Shown in pieces: positions 52,576-63,744 of a stretch of 64,000 nucleotides of DNA. The DNA lies in NCBI RefSeq assembly GCF_030553305.1, contig NZ_JARRAH010000001.1, positions 1,302,001-1,366,000 on the forward strand, written 5' to 3'. Origin of the DNA: Halomarina ordinaria (lineage in GTDB: Archaea > Halobacteriota > Halobacteria > Halobacteriales > Haloarculaceae). Below the pieces are notes generated by a model, which made no database searches, had not been told where the DNA came from, and saw only the letters and a program-made list of their open reading frames with translations. Position 1 is the first letter of the stretch. Every line of letters begins with the position of its first letter. The translations under genes and the position numbers were made by a program.

Positions 52576-53244
52576 ATGGCCACAGCGTCCTCCGAGAACC
52601 CCGTGAAGGCCCACCCGAAGGCCGTCACGGCGGTGCTCTCGGTCGTCGGCTACGCGCTCGTCATCGGCGCGTTCGAGGGACTGGTCCCCATCTTCCCCCC
52701 GCTGTCGGAGGCGACCGTCATCCTGTTCTCCGACCTCATCGCCGTCGTGAACACGATGGCGCTCACCGCCCTCCTCGTCGGCTGGTACTTCATCAGAGCC
52801 GGCGAGGTGCGCCGCCACCGCGCCGCGATGCTCACCGCCTTCTCGCTCATCCTCGTGTTCCTCGTGCTCTACCTCTGGAAGGTCGGCGGGGGCTTCGAGA
52901 AGAGCATCGTCATCGAGGAGGGGCAGTTCCTCGCGTCGTACGCAGGTATCGTCGAACCGCTCTACCTCGCCATGCTCGCGATTCACATCCTCCTGTCGGT
53001 GGTGGCGGTCCCCGTCGTGCTCTACGCCGTCGTCCTCGGCCTCACCCACACCCCGGCGGAACTGCGCGAGACGGCTCACGCCCGCGTCGGCCGGGTCGCC
53101 GTCACGGCGTGGTCGCTCAGCCTCTTCCTCGGCGTGGTCACGTACGTCATGCTCAACCACGTCTACTCGTGGGAGGTGCGCGGCGAGGTCCTCCTCCTGC
53201 TCGCGGCCCCGGCGCGCGGGTGGCTCGACCGCCTTCGCGAGTGA
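52576..53244 (+). CDS. DUF420 membrane protein (CtaM-like)
   Basis: A 222-residue protein with six hydrophobic helices. Conserved polar residues of the DUF420 family appear in the first helices (LSVVGYALVIGAFEGL, LIAVVNTMALTALLVGWYFI) and later His residues lie in HRAAMLTAF and the HILLSVVAVPVVLYAV helix. In Gram-positive bacteria DUF420/CtaM is needed for cytochrome aa3/caa3 oxidase maturation; a similar role is inferred here, supported by the oxidase genes 8-10 kb away. A strong stem-loop follows its stop. Confidence 0.85.
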   Translation: MATASSENPVKAHPKAVTAVLSVVGYALVIGAFEGLVPIFPPLSEATVILFSDLIAVVNTMALTALLVGWYFIRAGEVRRHRAAMLTAFSLILVFLVLYLWKVGGGFEKSIVIEEGQFLASYAGIVEPLYLAMLAIHILLSVVAVPVVLYAVVLGLTHTPAELRETAHARVGRVAVTAWSLSLFLGVVTYVMLNHVYSWEVRGEVLLLLAAPARGWLDRLRE

Positions 53245-55704: not shown

Positions 55705-56463
55705 TCAGTCCGTCCGGGGGAGCGCGAGCGCCCCGGCGACGAAGAAGACGGCGGTGAGCGCGGCGAGGACGCCCAGGTCCACGAGCGGGTCACCGCCCCC
55801 GGGGGTGGTGACCGCCCGGACGCCCCGCGAGAAGTACGAGAGCGGCGAGAGCGACAGCGCGGGGACGAACCACTCGGGGAGCATCGACGGCGGGACGAAC
55901 GTCTCCGAGAGGAACAGGAGGGGGATGGCGATGCCGTTGCTCGCGGCGATGACGCCGTCCTGCGAGTCGGCGATGCGTCCGAGCAGCGCCCCGACGCCGC
56001 AGAACAGCGCGACGCCGAGGACGACGAAGGGGACGACGAGCGCGAGGCCCGGTCCGAGCGCGATGTTCGCGCCGGTGACGAGGACGACGAGCGCGAAGAT
56101 GACGAGCGCGGCGACGCCGATGATGCCGACGTTGACGAGCGTGTGCGAGAGCAGCCACTCCGCCCGGGAGAGGGGCGTCGTCGCCAGCTTCTCGAAGCGG
56201 TTGCCCTCGCGGTGGCGCGCCACCTCGCTCCCGACGCGCGACAGCGGCGTGAACAGCACCACCACGGCGAGGTAGCCGGGGAGGTAGTACGCCGGCGGTT
56301 CGGCGAACAGGCCGCCGCCGGTGGGTTGCGTCTGCACCAGCGCGCCGAAGATGAGGATGATGATGACGGGGAAGAAGAACGTGAAGAAGACGGCCGTCCG
56401 TCGCCGGAGGAACGAGCGGGCGGCCGCCGTCGTCTCCGAGCGCACCCGGCGCGTCAGCGTCAC
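55705..56463 (-). CDS. ABC-2 type transporter permease
   Basis: A 252-residue membrane subunit with six helices. RSFLRRRTAVFFTFFFPVII followed by the conserved first-helix region, LVNVGIIGVAALVIFALVVL and the C-terminal ALSLSPLSYFSRGVRAV are typical of ABC-2 permeases such as those of the NatB/NosY group. Its start codon is GTG, in a four-base overlap (GTGA) with the stop of the ATPase gene, so the two proteins are made together. The substrate is unknown; the neighbourhood suggests a link to oxidase or heme/copper biogenesis. Confidence 0.93.
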   Translation of the reverse strand: MTLTRRVRSETTAAARSFLRRRTAVFFTFFFPVIIILIFGALVQTQPTGGGLFAEPPAYYLPGYLAVVVLFTPLSRVGSEVARHREGNRFEKLATTPLSRAEWLLSHTLVNVGIIGVAALVIFALVVLVTGANIALGPGLALVVPFVVLGVALFCGVGALLGRIADSQDGVIAASNGIAIPLLFLSETFVPPSMLPEWFVPALSLSPLSYFSRGVRAVTTPGGGDPLVDLGVLAALTAVFFVAGALALPRTD

Positions 56464-57392
56464 GCCGCCACCTCCGCCTCCCGCTCGACGGCCTCGCCCG
56501 TCTCGGTCACGTCGGTGCCCGTCAGCGCGAGGTAGACCGACTCGAGGTCCGGCTGGCGCCACGAGAGGGCGTCGTACTCGACGCCCGACTCGTCGAGCGT
56601 CCGGACCACCGCCGCGATGGTCTCGGGTGGGATGTCGGAGACGACGACGGCGCGCGGTGTGTGGTCGACGGCGTAGCCGTCGGCCGCCAGCGCGCGCGCG
56701 GCCGCCTCGTCGGCGTCGGTGCGGAGTTCGAGGCGACTCGTCCCGCCGTACTCGGCGACGAGCGCGCTCGGCGACCCCTCCGCGACCAGCCGACCGTCGG
56801 CGAGCAGCCCCACGCGGTCGGCCAACCGTTCGGCCTCCTCCATGTAGTGGGTAGTGAGCACCACCGTCGTCCCGCCGTCGGCGAGCGACTCGAGGAGGTC
56901 CCAGAGGTCGCGCCGGCCGGCCGGGTCGATGCCCGTCGTCGGTTCGTCGAGGACGAGCAGGTCCGGGTCGTTGACGAGCGTCGCCGCGACGCAGACCCGG
57001 CGCTGCTGGCCGCCCGAGAGCTTCCCGTACCACGTGTCGGCGTCGCCGGCCATCCCCACGTCCGCGAGCACCTCGCTCGTGGGTCGCGCCCGGTCGTAGA
57101 GCCCCCCGTAGTAGTCGACCAGTTCGCGGGCGGTGAGGCGCTCGGGCGGGTCGAACGACTGGGGGAGGAGACCGAGACGCTGGGGGTCGGCGTCGACGGG
57201 CGGGCCGCCGAACAGGTCGACCTCCCCCTCGTAGTCGGTCGTCCCGGTGAGCGAGCGGATGAGCGTCGTCTTGCCCGCGCCGTTCGGGCCGATGAGCGCG
57301 TACACCTCCCCCTCGGCGACGGACAGCGAGACGCCGTCGAGCGCGACGGTGTCGCCGTACGCGCGTCGGACGTCCTCGGCGACCAGTACCAT
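56460..57392 (-). CDS. ABC transporter ATP-binding protein
   Basis: A 310-residue ATPase of the ABC-2/CcmA-like group. Walker A ALIGPNGAGKTTLIRSL, the Q-loop LLPQSFDPPERLTARELV, signature KLSGGQQRRVCVAATLV, Walker B LLVLDEPTTGIDPAGRRD and the H-loop TTHYMEEAERLADR are all intact. A C-terminal regulatory domain of about 80 residues follows. It energises the permease encoded immediately downstream. Confidence 0.95.
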   Translation of the reverse strand: MVLVAEDVRRAYGDTVALDGVSLSVAEGEVYALIGPNGAGKTTLIRSLTGTTDYEGEVDLFGGPPVDADPQRLGLLPQSFDPPERLTARELVDYYGGLYDRARPTSEVLADVGMAGDADTWYGKLSGGQQRRVCVAATLVNDPDLLVLDEPTTGIDPAGRRDLWDLLESLADGGTTVVLTTHYMEEAERLADRVGLLADGRLVAEGSPSALVAEYGGTSRLELRTDADEAAARALAADGYAVDHTPRAVVVSDIPPETIAAVVRTLDESGVEYDALSWRQPDLESVYLALTGTDVTETGEAVEREAEVAA

Positions 57393-57485
57393 AGCGAGTC
57401 TCGGTGCGGCCCGCGCGTAAGGGATTCGGATTCCGACGGACCGCACCGACCGAAGCCCTTTGCACCCTTCCCGTGTCGATGGGAC

Positions 57486-58145
57486 ATGGACGACCAGCGC
57501 GACCGGGTGCGGCGAGGGTACGACGCGCTGGCCGAGGCGTACGCGGCCGCACGCTCCGGAGACGGTGACGGCGTCGCACTCCTCTCGGACCTCGCGGCGA
57601 ACCTCCCGGCCGACGCGCGCGTCCTCGACGCCGGCTGTGGACAGGGGGCGCCCGTCCTCACCCGTCTCGACGAACGGTTCGACCCCGTCGGCCTCGACGT
57701 CTCGCGCGCCCAGTTGACCCTCGCACGCGAGGCGTGCGACGCGGCGCTCCTCGCGGGTGACATGACCGCCCTCCCGTTCGTGGACGACAGTTTCGACGGC
57801 GTCACGGCCTACCACTCGCTCATCCACGTCCCGACCGACGAGCACCCGACGGCGCTCGCGGAGTTCGCCCGCGTCCTCCGCCCGGGCGGCTCCCTCCTCC
57901 TCTCGACGGGGATGGGTGCCTGGACGGGGCGAAACCGCGACTGGCTGGACACCGGCGTCGCGATGGAGTGGAGCTTTCCGGACCTGGAGACGACGAAGGC
58001 CACGCTCCGGGACGTGGGGTTCGACCCCGTCGCGGAGTGGTACGTCGAGGACCGGTTGGGGGAGGACGAGGACGACGGAGACGAGGGGGCGACGACCGAC
58101 GAGTCGGTCGACCCGTGGGTGTTCGTGCTGGCGCGCCTCGACTAG
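57486..58145 (+). CDS. Class I SAM-dependent methyltransferase
   Basis: A 219-residue methyltransferase with the SAM motif VLDAGCGQGAPVLTRLDER, the acidic loop LDVSRAQLTLAR and motif II/III regions FDGVTAYHSLIHV and LLLSTGMGAWTGRNRDWLD. The substrate cannot be deduced; the layout is like ubiquinone/menaquinone-type or small-molecule methyltransferases. A Glu/Asp-rich insertion (GEDEDDGDEGATTDES) precedes the last strand. Its stop overlaps the end of the SelW-like gene on the opposite strand. Confidence 0.88.
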   Translation: MDDQRDRVRRGYDALAEAYAAARSGDGDGVALLSDLAANLPADARVLDAGCGQGAPVLTRLDERFDPVGLDVSRAQLTLAREACDAALLAGDMTALPFVDDSFDGVTAYHSLIHVPTDEHPTALAEFARVLRPGGSLLLSTGMGAWTGRNRDWLDTGVAMEWSFPDLETTKATLRDVGFDPVAEWYVEDRLGEDEDDGDEGATTDESVDPWVFVLARLD

Positions 58146-58372
58146 AGTTCCGCGCGCACCCGCCGCACGACCGCGTCGACGTCGAAGTCGTCCTCGCTCA
58201 CGTCGAAGACGCGCTCGCCGTCGACGCGGACGGTGAACACGCCGTGGTCGCCGGTGACGAGCGCGACGCGGTCGAGGCGCTCGCCGAACGTCGTCAGCAG
58301 GACGTGCTGGACGTCCTCCGCGCGGCGCAGGAACCCACACGGGACGCAGTACTCTATCTCGACGCTCGTCAC
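58142..58372 (-). CDS. SelT/SelW/SelH-like (Rdx) thioredoxin-fold protein
   Basis: A 76-residue redoxin with the CxxC motif Cys9-Val-Pro-Cys12 in VEIEYCVPCGFLRRAEDVQ, where many relatives have CxxU. The Rdx family is thioredoxin-like and probably handles thiol redox reactions. The GTG start at 58372 overlaps the stop of the membrane protein gene upstream (58369-58372), and that gene in turn overlaps CtaB, so three proteins come from one message: CtaB fusion, membrane protein, SelW-like. A role in thiol chemistry of oxidase assembly is inferred. Confidence 0.88.
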   Translation of the reverse strand: MTSVEIEYCVPCGFLRRAEDVQHVLLTTFGERLDRVALVTGDHGVFTVRVDGERVFDVSEDDFDVDAVVRRVRAEL

Positions 58373-59070
58373 CGGACCCACCCCCCGAGACGGGCGAGGT
58401 CGGCCGCCGTCGGCCGCCGGACGAGCAGCGCGACGGCGAGAACGAAGACGAGCGTCGAGAGGGCGTAGCTCCCGTCGCCGACGAGCGCCGCACCGTCGCC
58501 GACGAACCCGCCGAGCGTCCCCGCGAGGAGCGGGAGCGCGCCGACGAGACAGGGACCGAGTGCCGCAGGCCCCCTCGTGTCGACGAGCGCGACGGCGAGG
58601 AGGTACGCGAGCGCCGCGTAGCCGACGACTCTGAACGACACGAGCGCGAGCGTGAGGCCGCCGCCGGTGTAGAGGAGCGCGGGGCTCCACCCCGGCGGGA
58701 GGCCGGCGACGACGAGCCGCGGGCCGACGTCTGGACCGCCGGCGCCGACGGCGTAGAGCCCGCCGACGGAGCCGAGGGCGAGCAGGTACCCGACGCCGAG
58801 TGCGCCCGCGACGGCGCGACGGCGCGTCGACGCCCCGGCTGCCGAGACGCGCCGGGCCTGCCGGACCCGCCAGACCCCCCAGAGGGCGACGTTCAGCCAG
58901 ACGAACGGGTAGACGTAGACCAGCGGCCGGTAGGGGACGGCGTCGGAGAGGACGAAGTACGCGAGGAGGGCGAGGAGTTCCGTGTTGACGAGGACGCCGC
59001 CCGCGACGAGCGCGTCGCGCGTCAGGAGGGGCCGGGAACCGGTCCGGGAGGCGGTCCCGGAGGCGGTCAT
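58369..59070 (-). CDS. Polytopic membrane protein of the ctaB operon
   Basis: A 233-residue integral membrane protein with six or seven hydrophobic helices (for example LVNTELLALLAYFVLSDAVP, VYVYPFVWLNVALWGVWRV, GALGVGYLLALGSVGGLYA). I recognise no catalytic motif. It overlaps the CtaA-CtaB fusion gene upstream by four bases (ATGA) and the SelW-like gene downstream by four (GTGA), implying coupled translation in a heme or oxidase biogenesis operon. Function unknown. Confidence 0.82.
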   Translation of the reverse strand: MTASGTASRTGSRPLLTRDALVAGGVLVNTELLALLAYFVLSDAVPYRPLVYVYPFVWLNVALWGVWRVRQARRVSAAGASTRRRAVAGALGVGYLLALGSVGGLYAVGAGGPDVGPRLVVAGLPPGWSPALLYTGGGLTLALVSFRVVGYAALAYLLAVALVDTRGPAALGPCLVGALPLLAGTLGGFVGDGAALVGDGSYALSTLVFVLAVALLVRRPTAADLARLGGWVR

Positions 59071-60476
59071 AGCGCGATGGCGTCGACGAGGACGGCGACG
59101 AGCAGCGCACCCAGGTAGGCGTTCGAGGCGTGGAACGCGCGCAGGGCGGCCCCCTTCGTCCGCTCGCGGTGGAGGCGCACGACCATCCAGAGGAACAGCG
59201 CGCCGAAGGTGACGGTGGCGCTCGCGAACAGCCAGCCGAGGCCGGTCAGCGCCGTGAGGACGCTCGCCGCGACGAGCGTCGCCGCGAGGTAGAAGACGAT
59301 GTGCTTTCGCGTCTCCGTCTCGCCGCGGACGACGGGCATCATCGGGAAGCCGCCGCGGGCGTAGTCCTCCTTGTACGCGAGCGCGAGGTTGTAGAAGTGC
59401 GCCGGCGTCCAGAGGAAGATGACGCCCGCGAGCGCGAGGCCGGCGAGGCCGACCTCGCCCGTCGCCGCGGCCCAGCCGATGAGCGCCGGGAGCGCCCCCG
59501 CCGCGCCGCCGATGACGGTGTTCTGGACGGTGTTGGGCTTGAGGACGAGCGTGTAGACGACGCTGTAGAAGACGATGGCGGCGAAACCGAGGCCCGCCAC
59601 GAGGGTGTTCACCTGGAGGAAGACGGCGACGGCGGCGACGGTGAGCAGGCCGCCGAAGACCAGCGCGTTGCGCACCGGCACCTGGTGGGTGGCGAGCGGG
59701 CGGTCGGCGGTCCGGGCCATCTTCTGGTCGACGTCGCGTTCGAGGACGTGGTTGAACGTCCCGCTGGCGCCGATGGCGAGGACGCCGCCGCCGAGCGTGT
59801 AGGCGATGGTGTCGACCCGGAGGTCGGGGCCGGCGGCGAGCGCCATCGCCGCGCCCGCGACCAGACAGAGCAGCCACATCAGCCGGGGCTTCATGAGCTT
59901 GAAGTAGGCGTAGAGGGTCGCCCGTGCTCGGGCGACGGGGCCGCGCTGTGAGAGGGGCGTGGGGGTGCCGGCGGGGTCGGGCGCGGGCGTGTCGTCCGTG
60001 GCCGAGAGGGTTCCGGCGGCCTCGGTCGTCGCGGGGGGACGGTGGCCCGTCTCGGCTTCGAGTTGCCACGCGAGCGCGAGCGCGAGGCTGGCGAAGATGG
60101 CCACCGCGGCGAGGAGGTGGGCGCCCGCGAGCAGCGAGGGGGCGCCGGCGACGGCGACGAACGCGCCGACGGCGACCTGGACGGGGTAGAGCGCGAGCGC
60201 GACGCCGAGGGCGGCCCGGACGCGTCGCGGGGCCATCGACCAGCCGACCGCGACGGTGGCGAGCAGGAGCACGCCGACGACCGCCGCGGCGACGCGGTGG
60301 CCGGTGGCGACGGCGACCTGCGGGTCGGTGAGCGGTCCCGAGCAGAGCGGCCACGTCCCGCAGGCCGCGACGGCGTCCGCGAGCGCGGTGGTCGCCCCGA
60401 CCACGACCAGCAGGTAGACGCCGACGGTCGTCGCCGTGAGCAACGTCGTAAAGCGGGGGAGTCGAGGCACGGTCAC
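59067..60476 (-). CDS. ctaB: Fusion of a compact heme A synthase-like domain with heme O synthase (CtaB)
   Basis: A 469-residue membrane protein. Residues 1-140 form four helices like half of a CtaA/Cox15 protein: Cys39 and Cys45 (ACGTWPLC), heme-ligand candidates His60 (TGHRVAAA) and His120 (AGAHLLAAV). A linker with Thr/Pro/Ala (145-182) follows. Residues 185-469 are a UbiA-type farnesyltransferase (KLMKPRLM, NHVLERDVDQKMARTADRP, the second motif NLALAYKEDYARGGFPMMPV) that converts heme B to heme O. Together the two halves could make heme A for the oxidase. Compact four-helix CtaA variants are known from Aeropyrum. The next two genes overlap its end. Confidence 0.92.
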   Translation of the reverse strand: MTVPRLPRFTTLLTATTVGVYLLVVVGATTALADAVAACGTWPLCSGPLTDPQVAVATGHRVAAAVVGVLLLATVAVGWSMAPRRVRAALGVALALYPVQVAVGAFVAVAGAPSLLAGAHLLAAVAIFASLALALAWQLEAETGHRPPATTEAAGTLSATDDTPAPDPAGTPTPLSQRGPVARARATLYAYFKLMKPRLMWLLCLVAGAAMALAAGPDLRVDTIAYTLGGGVLAIGASGTFNHVLERDVDQKMARTADRPLATHQVPVRNALVFGGLLTVAAVAVFLQVNTLVAGLGFAAIVFYSVVYTLVLKPNTVQNTVIGGAAGALPALIGWAAATGEVGLAGLALAGVIFLWTPAHFYNLALAYKEDYARGGFPMMPVVRGETETRKHIVFYLAATLVAASVLTALTGLGWLFASATVTFGALFLWMVVRLHRERTKGAALRAFHASNAYLGALLVAVLVDAIAL

Positions 60477-60577: not shown

Positions 60578-61516
60578 ATGAGAGTTACCCGGAGATGGCT
60601 GGGTGCGTCCGGGGGGCTCGCGCTGCTCGCGCTCGCAGTCCTCGCGGAACCCGTCGCCGCCCAGACATCCGTCAACGAGGAGCTCATTTTCGGCCTCAAT
60701 CGGAAGCTGTTGTACGTGGCGATACCGATCACGGTGCTCGTGGAGGGTATCCTCTTCTACACCGTCTACAAGTACCGGAACAACGACGACCCCTCCCCGA
60801 CCCAGGAGAACCGTCGCCTGGAGATCACCTGGACGGTCGCGACGGCCATCATCCTGCTGTTCGTCGGCCTGGCCTCCTACCAGGTCCTCGGCAGTGCCTT
60901 CATCGGCGGCGCGACGGCCGCCAACCCCGGCGACGCCGAGGTCACGAACCTCTCGGAGGACTACGACGGTGCGCAGGCGCCGAGCGAGGCCGACGCCGTC
61001 GAGGTCGAGGTCGTCGCGGCGAAGTACTTCTGGGAGGTGAACTACCCCCAGGAGAACGTGTCGGGTGAGCAAGACACGGTGGTGATACCAGCCGACAGGC
61101 CGGTGTACATCCACGTCACCTCCACCGACTGGCTCCACGCGTTCCACGCGCCCGACCTCGGCCTGAAGCAGGACGCCTTCCCCGGCGAGTACAACACCAT
61201 CAAGACCGAGGTGTACGAGCCCGGGACCTACCAGCTCTACTGCGCCGAGTACTGCGGCGTCGGTCACTCCCAGATGCTCGGGACCATCGAGGTCCTGCCC
61301 GGCGACGAGTACGACCAGTGGATAGAGGACCAGCGTTCGAGCGGCGAGGCCGGCGGCAACGAGACGGCGGGCAACGAGACTGCCAACGCCACCGCGGGCA
61401 ACGAGACCGCCAACGCCACCGCCAACGGGACGGCGGGTAACGAAACCACCAACGCGACGGCCAACGCGACTGCCAACGGCACCGACGCCAACGCGACGGC
61501 CAACGGCACGAGCTGA
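60578..61516 (+). CDS. coxB: Cytochrome c oxidase subunit II with a sequon-rich tail
   Basis: A 312-residue oxidase subunit. After a signal (MRVTRRWLGASGGLALLALA), two transmembrane helices (about 44-66, 88-108) precede the CuA domain. CuA ligands are His187 (WLHAF), Cys222 and Cys226 with Glu224 between them, His230 and Met233 (YCAEYCGVGHSQM). Residues 261-312 are a low-complexity tail of Asn, Ala, Thr and Gly with twelve N-glycosylation sequons. It passes electrons from a blue copper or cytochrome donor to the catalytic subunit, which is not in the window. Confidence 0.96.
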   Translation: MRVTRRWLGASGGLALLALAVLAEPVAAQTSVNEELIFGLNRKLLYVAIPITVLVEGILFYTVYKYRNNDDPSPTQENRRLEITWTVATAIILLFVGLASYQVLGSAFIGGATAANPGDAEVTNLSEDYDGAQAPSEADAVEVEVVAAKYFWEVNYPQENVSGEQDTVVIPADRPVYIHVTSTDWLHAFHAPDLGLKQDAFPGEYNTIKTEVYEPGTYQLYCAEYCGVGHSQMLGTIEVLPGDEYDQWIEDQRSSGEAGGNETAGNETANATAGNETANATANGTAGNETTNATANATANGTDANATANGTS

Positions 61517-62463: not shown

Positions 62464-63330
62464 TCAGATACCGAGTTCGGCGCCGACGTAGAGGACGACG
62501 ACGAGGAAGATCCAGACGGCGTCGACGAAGTGCCAGTACATCGAGACCGTCGAGACGGAGGTGTGTCGCTCGGCGGAGTACTGGCCGTAGAGCGCGCGGA
62601 CGAAGACGATGGCGATGAGGACGGCCCCGAGCGAGACGTGGAGGCCGTGCAGGCCGGTCAGGCCGAAGAAGGCGCTCGCGTAGATGCCCTCCTGCAGGCC
62701 GAAGCCCTCGTTGATGATGAACTCGTAGTACTCGAGGACCTGCCCGCCGATGAAGACGACGCCGAGCAGGAGCGTGACGGCGAGCAGTCCCTTGAAGCGC
62801 CCGTGGTTGTCGTTCAGCAGCGCGACGTGGGCGTAGTGGAGCGTGAAACTGCTCACGACCAGGATGGCGGTGTTGACGAGGACGAGCGAACTCAGGAGGT
62901 GGGGGAGTTCCGCACCCGCCGGGGGCCACGCCCCCGCACGGATGAAGAAGTAGTAGATGAACCCGGCGCCGAAGGTGCTGATTTCGCTCCCGAGGAAGAG
63001 CACCATCGCGAACCTGAGCCCGCGGGCGCTGCTGCCCTCCGGTTCGCCGTCCCAGAAGTTCACGATGAACGCGTGGTACAGCCAGCCGTAGAGACCGGCG
63101 AGGAAGACGACGGTGCTACCGATGAACACCGCCGGTCCGATGAGCGGGTTGATGAGGGGTTCCTGACCGTTGCCGAGGACGAACAGCGCCGCGCCGATGT
63201 AGAACCCGGCGCCGCCGAGGGCGGTGATGAAGGGCCACCAGGAGGCCTCCCCGAACCCGCGGGGCCAGTCCTCGACCGCGGGCAGGTGGTGGTGGTGCCC
63301 GCCGTGCTCGTCCGCTTCGTCTACACTCAT
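62464..63330 (-). CDS. coxC: Cytochrome c oxidase subunit III
   Basis: A 288-residue membrane subunit with seven helices. The N-terminal His-rich tail GGHHHHLPAVEDWPRG faces the cytoplasm. Helices carry the family segments SEISTFGAGFIYYFFIRAGA, FTLHYAHVALLNDN, and FFGLTGLHGLHVSLGAVLIA and SVSTVSMYWHFVDAVWIFLV. Subunit III stabilises the oxidase and helps proton uptake. It is transcribed toward coxB, not with it. No conserved Glu (Glu of the DCCD site) is changed in an obvious way. Confidence 0.96.
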   Translation of the reverse strand: MSVDEADEHGGHHHHLPAVEDWPRGFGEASWWPFITALGGAGFYIGAALFVLGNGQEPLINPLIGPAVFIGSTVVFLAGLYGWLYHAFIVNFWDGEPEGSSARGLRFAMVLFLGSEISTFGAGFIYYFFIRAGAWPPAGAELPHLLSSLVLVNTAILVVSSFTLHYAHVALLNDNHGRFKGLLAVTLLLGVVFIGGQVLEYYEFIINEGFGLQEGIYASAFFGLTGLHGLHVSLGAVLIAIVFVRALYGQYSAERHTSVSTVSMYWHFVDAVWIFLVVVLYVGAELGI

Positions 63331-63450: not shown

Positions 63451-63744
63451 ATGAGCGACGTCGAACCCACGCCGCCGGTCCGCACGCGGACGAACGAAGC
63501 CGACGTATCGACGACCCCCCCGTTCGACTGCGAGTTCTGCGAGCGACGCTTCGCCCACGAGGAGTGGCTGGTGCTCCACCGCGGGCTGGAACACGGCGAC
63601 CGCCTCTCCGAGGCGGAGTACGAGCGGTTCCAGGAGACCTACGAGGACGAGGAGGAGGAGCTGAACCTCTTCCGGCTGAAGGCGCTCGCCCTGCTGGTGT
63701 TCGTCTACTTCGGCTTCCTCATCACGTACGCGTTCGTGGCGTGA
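63451..63744 (+). CDS. C2H2 zinc-finger protein with C-terminal membrane helix
   Basis: A 97-residue protein. Residues 26-48 form a single C2H2 finger: CEFCERRFAHEEWLVLHRGL with the second His in LEHGD. A charged helix (SEAEYERFQETYEDEEEELN) links it to a C-terminal transmembrane segment (LKALALLVFVYFGFLITYAF). The finger would face the cytoplasm. Divergent from coxC, with a short spacer. Related small finger-plus-anchor proteins recur near haloarchaeal oxidase genes by my recollection; role unknown. Confidence 0.82.
   Translation: MSDVEPTPPVRTRTNEADVSTTPPFDCEFCERRFAHEEWLVLHRGLEHGDRLSEAEYERFQETYEDEEEELNLFRLKALALLVFVYFGFLITYAFVA

Follow-up and report, generated by a model that had tools for sequence, protein, structure and literature searches.

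In Bacillus subtilis, TrxA reduces CcdA and the electrons are passed outward to ResA and perhaps to Sco (PMC9145763). The ATP-binding cassette (ABC) exporter CydDC delivers haem for the assembly of cytochrome bd (PMC10374445, PMC13337084), and SelW-related genes have been described beside the type 1A haem A synthase in a 2026 paper (PMC12808453). The link between SelW and haem A synthase is therefore already in print; in the available text of that paper no mechanism is offered for SelW, the term 'ABC' is absent from the main text, and neither DUF7546 nor the exporter discussed below is seen. The locus considered in this work lies in a stretch of 64,000 nucleotides (nt) from Halomarina ordinaria (contig NZ_JARRAH010000001.1, positions 1,302,001 to 1,366,000), which as a whole is called the window and to which all coordinates refer unless a locus is named. 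It contains a fusion of haem A synthase (CtaA) and haem O synthase (CtaB), a membrane protein of the DUF7546 family, an Rdx/SelW-like redoxin (Rdx) and an ABC-2 transporter, placed next to genes of a haem-copper oxidase. To our knowledge, the assembly of archaeal haem-copper oxidases is largely unknown. The association of this cluster with the oxidase is well supported, whereas the chemistry (thiol or copper), the direction of flow and the substrate of the exporter are what we infer from it.

The cluster shares some features with each of the known systems and differs from all of them. As in the TrxA-CcdA-ResA/Sco pathway, which serves thiols on the outer face, a cytosolic CxxC protein (Rdx) accompanies a polytopic membrane protein with cysteines (DUF7546). 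In CcdA the two membrane cysteines are on separate, repeated helices, whereas DUF7546 has a single conserved CxxC in transmembrane (TM) helix 5 and no detected similarity to CcdA in sequence or fold; moreover, Rdx is SelW-like, and neither a Sco nor a CcdA match is present in the window genome. For the exporter, the closest model in function is CydDC, an ABC exporter that is likewise tied to the assembly of a terminal oxidase. However, CydDC consists of two fused TM-ATPase half-transporters, whereas here the ATPase and the ABC2_membrane permease are separate proteins, and they accompany an oxidase of the haem-copper type. The actinobacterial ctaA-ABC neighbourhood Rv1456c-Rv1458c, which we presume to be a parallel, is not used here; the available literature speaks of an ABC system and does not call Rv1456c CtaA. 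CtaM/DUF420, for which copper handling has been proposed (PMC13344008), is likewise a membrane factor of oxidase assembly and is encoded 2.5 kilobases (kb) away, but DUF7546 has no similarity to it by hhalign. Literature searches returned nothing on DUF7546 or on this exporter and no paper on the Rdx family in haloarchaea, and the available text of PMC8305020 and PMC9240420 does not mention the genes of the cluster.

The co-occurrence of the ABC-2 permease with the oxidase is the strongest result of the analysis and had not been anticipated in the original prediction. Domains of the window proteins were called with Pfam and NCBIfam models, the scores being compared with curated cut-offs; the permease gene (55705-56463, minus strand; PF01061 (ABC2_membrane), 82.9 bits against a cut-off of 26.9) overlaps by 4 nt the gene of its ATPase (56460-57392, minus strand; PF00005, 5.7e-28). 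In the main sample of 155 Halobacteria genomes the permease is present in 151, and the four genomes that lack it are precisely those that lack CtaB (Fisher p 4.3e-8, a value that carries no background for other near-universal genes lost in the same four genomes). The same four also lack subunit I of the haem-copper oxidase (COX1), and G345, a congener of one of them, possesses COX1, CtaB and the permease together. The co-occurrence of the ABC genes with ctaB, which the original prediction had offered as its own check, is thus found for the permease in 151/151 genomes with ctaB and 0/4 without it. In a larger draw the permease is present in 386 of 391 genomes. It is almost always a single-copy gene, and outside Halobacteria no ortholog-level match was detected in a draw of 120 genomes of the phylum (best 32% identity); a comparison with PDB sequences gave no match. 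Among the listed places, every permease gene at most 10 kb from ctaB is downstream of it and on its strand (82/82).

The second line of evidence is the conserved gene order around ctaB. In the window, the ctaAB fusion (59067-60476, minus strand; GTG start, 469 amino acids (aa); TIGR01473, 295.8 bits against a cut-off of 210.3), with a type 1A-like CtaA half, is followed by the DUF7546 gene (58369-59070, minus strand; PF24412, 7.2e-49), which is predicted to encode six TM helices, and by the Rdx gene with its CVPC motif (58142-58372, minus strand; PF10262, 7.7e-18, 64.9 bits against 22.6; TIGR02174, 42.4 against 34.2). The start of DUF7546 and the stop of ctaB share 4 nt, as do the start of Rdx and the stop of DUF7546, and the predicted four-base overlaps between these three genes are therefore borne out by the coordinates. 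Divergent from ctaAB is coxB, encoding oxidase subunit II (60578-61516, plus strand; TIGR02866, 182.2 bits against a cut-off of 147.7), in which the full CuA motif CAEYCGVGHSQM was read in the sequence. Among the 155 genomes CtaB is found in 151, DUF7546 in 101 and Rdx in 97. At 85 of the 150 ctaB places listed among these genomes DUF7546 follows downstream within 5 kb, on the same strand in 84 cases, with 9-96 nt between profile matches, and Rdx lies within 5 kb of 64, in every case downstream and on the same strand; the chance of finding either within 5 kb of a random position is about 0.3%. Both are present at 46 of the listed places and neither at 47. Neighbour maps were drawn for hand-chosen loci (60 + 20), with genes called by a home-made caller that was trained on ten window genes and misses some short genes. 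In a separate set, the 80 named loci found with DUF7546, the order is CoxB< CtaAB> DUF7546> (Rdx>) ABCatp> ABCperm>. CtaAB is a neighbour at 76 of these DUF7546 loci, CoxB at 66, the ATPase at 58, the permease at 56, Rdx at 41, DUF420 at 28 and a methyltransferase at 3. The cluster is real and conserved.

DUF7546 is linked to oxidases also outside this neighbourhood. Of 20 hand-chosen DUF7546 loci without a listed ctaB in their vicinity, 14 encode a CoxB of the CuA type at a distance of up to about 7 kb, and one of these 14 (L109) is in fact a CtaAB locus with an unlisted ctaB; no oxidase is found near the copies at L105, L107, L110 and L111. For the exporter as for DUF7546, the tie to haem-copper oxidases extends beyond this one neighbourhood. 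The consensus among aligned relatives is GL-S-C-V-S-C-x-W-P, in which the two cysteines hardly vary; neither His nor Met is conserved at any position. The search patterns that led to the 80 named loci included SCVSC, so that the CxxC count there (80 of 80) is biased and was left out of use; at loci reached without that pattern the CxxC of TM helix 5 is kept in 69 of 70 proteins, the single exception being the window's own copy. The model of the Haloferax massiliensis protein (predicted local distance difference test, pLDDT, 81; predicted template modelling score, pTM, 0.77) consists of six TM helices, the fifth of which is interrupted at the CxxC, and the positive-inside charge pattern puts this motif on the cytosolic side. 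In a Pfam scan the window protein and four others matched DUF7546 only, with no match to DsbD_TM or DsbD_2. Foldseek with the model gave 15 matches at E ≤ 10 and none at E ≤ 0.001 (VIA Z ≤ 4.4); CcdA, VKOR and DsbB are not among them, which excludes nothing. Kinship with CtaA, DUF420, DsbD_2 or CcdA was rejected on empty hhalign results, the last two comparisons being weak.

Other arrangements were seen at individual DUF7546 loci. At L104 (3383-7535) a DsbD_2-like protein, a CcoI-type copper ATPase and DUF7546 are consecutive in an apparent operon beside a ba3-type oxidase, the first two names being based on likeness to Pfam-scanned relatives. The copy at L107 (5048-8332) carries CPGC and a C-terminal membrane-like extension, and two adjoining genes are rhodanese-like, as named by eye. 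Recurrent neighbours at the second-oxidase loci L092-L103 are a zinc-finger protein of the DUF7410 family and two proteins, of 147 and 466 aa, that match no Pfam model.

Rdx is best described as a likely but optional partner. Both of its cysteines are kept in 51 of 51 aligned relatives, in the CxxC form without selenocysteine, and solved SelW-like chains were found among its matches. The CtaA half of the fusion scores below the cut-off of COX15-CtaA (25.2 against 29.9 bits), and a C-x2-W-P-x-C pair (C-x5-C), presumably positioned in the first outer loop, is present in 70 of 72 relatives. CcdA and Sco were searched for in 35 hand-chosen genomes, with a CcdA-family match in 5 and Sco in 27; all four oxidase-bearing genomes without Sco have DUF7546. 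The mean number of Sco matches is 0.93 in genomes with DUF7546 (n=15) and 2.44 in those oxidase genomes that lack it (n=16; Mann-Whitney p 1e-4), a contrast that is confounded since the two groups differ by clade. Two further layouts concern these genes. In genus g14 (L066-L067, L087-L089) Rdx is flanked by ctaAB on one side and a heavy-metal P-type ATPase on the other, next to a CuA oxidase and without DUF7546, and in several genomes of family f3 (L052 8858-9499, L054, L064) a DsbA-like lipoprotein lies directly 3' of ctaAB, without DUF7546 there.

We give about an even chance to the reading that the cluster serves haloarchaea as a module for the maturation of CuA-type haem-copper oxidases, combining an Rdx/DUF7546 relay with an exporter. 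In such a module CtaA-CtaB would make haem O and haem A, and DUF7546, with its CxxC in the cytosolic half of TM helix 5, would carry reducing equivalents or Cys-held Cu(I) across the membrane, with the cysteines of the CuA site in CoxB or of the CtaA loop as the likely end users. The cytosolic, thioredoxin-fold Rdx would keep the DUF7546 cysteines reduced where Rdx is present. The ABC-2 exporter would be required in every organism that makes a haem-copper oxidase, and, by analogy with CydDC, its cargo on the way to the outer face may be haem or a thiol of low molecular weight. Carriage of copper by the CxxC of DUF7546 is nearly as plausible as a thiol relay. A stricter version, in which DUF7546 (with Rdx in many species) forms a lineage-specific route to CuA oxidases and the ABC-2 exporter is obligatory for the delivery of haem A/O, is proposed only tentatively.

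Several observations weigh against the maturation module. DUF7546 is missing from 54 and Rdx from 58 of the 155 genomes, most of which have ctaB, and no Rdx is found at any of the 20 chosen DUF7546 loci away from a listed ctaB. The original expectation that both genes would accompany ctaB stood in so far as they are confined to ctaB genomes; however, because about a third of those genomes lack them, neither is obligatory. The link to Rdx is also weaker than had been suggested, because 40 of 104 Rdx loci are located away from a listed ctaB, many of them beside surE. The fifth genome without the permease in the larger draw (G230, an 80-contig assembly) has an oxidase and yet no ABC match, and the small size of the four oxidase-less genomes would also fit a loss of the ABC genes together with aerobic functions in general. 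The comparison of DUF7546 with CcdA, DsbD_2, CtaA and DUF420 by hhalign gave nothing (weak for DsbD_2 with 2 sequences and CcdA with 1), PDB sequences gave no match, CcdA and DUF7546 show no anticorrelation among the 35 genomes, and the Sco contrast is confounded as described. Finally, in the window's own DUF7546 (58369-59070) the second cysteine is gone and the degenerate motif reads CLVG. A single read error is an unlikely cause, because adjacent residues are altered too; the ctaAB-linked protein reads CVSC in all seven congeners, and the second copy in the window genome, which reads CLGC, keeps the motif.

Rather improbable, although the best placed of the alternatives, is a division of labour in which DUF7546 conducts or exports copper(I) by way of a soft-metal site at the CxxC of TM helix 5 and is no thiol-disulfide transducer, and Rdx is an unrelated general redoxin hitch-hiking in the operon. 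It agrees with the CxxC lacking a conserved His or Met, with the copper P-type ATPases that adjoin DUF7546 at L104 and L106, with the fewer Sco matches where DUF7546 is present, and with the proposal that the Bacillus DUF420 protein CtaM is a copper exporter (PMC13344008), whereas the translational overlap of DUF7546 with a CxxC redoxin in the window speaks against it. We regard as unlikely that the genes merely share a neighbourhood of aerobic growth, being co-expressed with ctaB and performing separate tasks; Rdx would then be a cytosolic reductase of general use, and the ABC transporter would export an aerobic by-product. The 40 of 104 Rdx loci away from a listed ctaB, many of them beside surE, the small size of the oxidase-less genomes and the position of the permease away from ctaB in 60 of the 148 genomes with listed permease places are in line with this; the uniform orientation of the 82 permeases near ctaB and the presence of DUF7546 at other oxidase loci are not. 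It is very improbable that the ABC-2 genes encode just another drug or lipid exporter of the DrrAB kind, positioned here by chance. The best NCBIfam matches of the pair include DrrA and DrrB families, but every such match is under the cut-off (TIGR01188, 203.7 against 312.45 bits, the ATPase being DrrA-like; TIGR01247, 46.4 against 223.05 bits), and the pair is almost always single copy with a distribution tied to oxidases.

The maturation module offers a testable job for three orphan genes in a group open to genetics (Haloferax), namely a near-universal and mostly single-copy exporter, a CxxC protein of a DUF family and a prokaryotic SelW. Within that group, Haloferax volcanii, used as a control, gave matches in the searches for Rdx, DUF7546, CtaB and Sco. 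The classical thiol transducer CcdA has no match in 30 of the 35 sampled haloarchaea. If the stricter version above is true, it would represent a new route of cofactor insertion, and a SelW homologue of prokaryotes would for the first time have a defined job.

The surroundings of the cluster had been included in the original prediction of an oxidase-assembly kit, of which the exporter and DUF7546 do track haem-copper oxidases, whereas Rdx is linked less firmly and the methyltransferase stands outside. The S-adenosylmethionine methyltransferase gene (57486-58145, plus strand; PF13649, 2.4e-19) is not in the operon because it is encoded on the plus strand; its 3' end shares 4 nt with the 3' end of Rdx, and 93 nt separate it from the divergent ABC ATPase gene. 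Thus the anticipated overlap among these neighbours exists between the ATPase and permease genes but not with the methyltransferase, which, being on the opposite strand and present at only 3 of the 80 named loci, was ruled out as a member of the module; relatives occur at the same locus in three congeners. The DUF420 (CtaM-like) gene, expected 3 kb further on, was located about 2.5 kb past the end of the cluster (52576-53244, plus strand; PF04238, 1e-33, 116.8 bits against a cut-off of 30.5) and is an outlying possible member, DUF420 being found within about 8 kb at 28 of the 80 named loci. On the other side lies coxC, encoding oxidase subunit III (62464-63330, minus strand; PF00510, 3.4e-33). 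Beyond it, a small protein at 63451-63744, hydrophobic at its C-terminus, gives a weak C2H2/DUF7410-like match, and its relatives recur at other oxidase loci.

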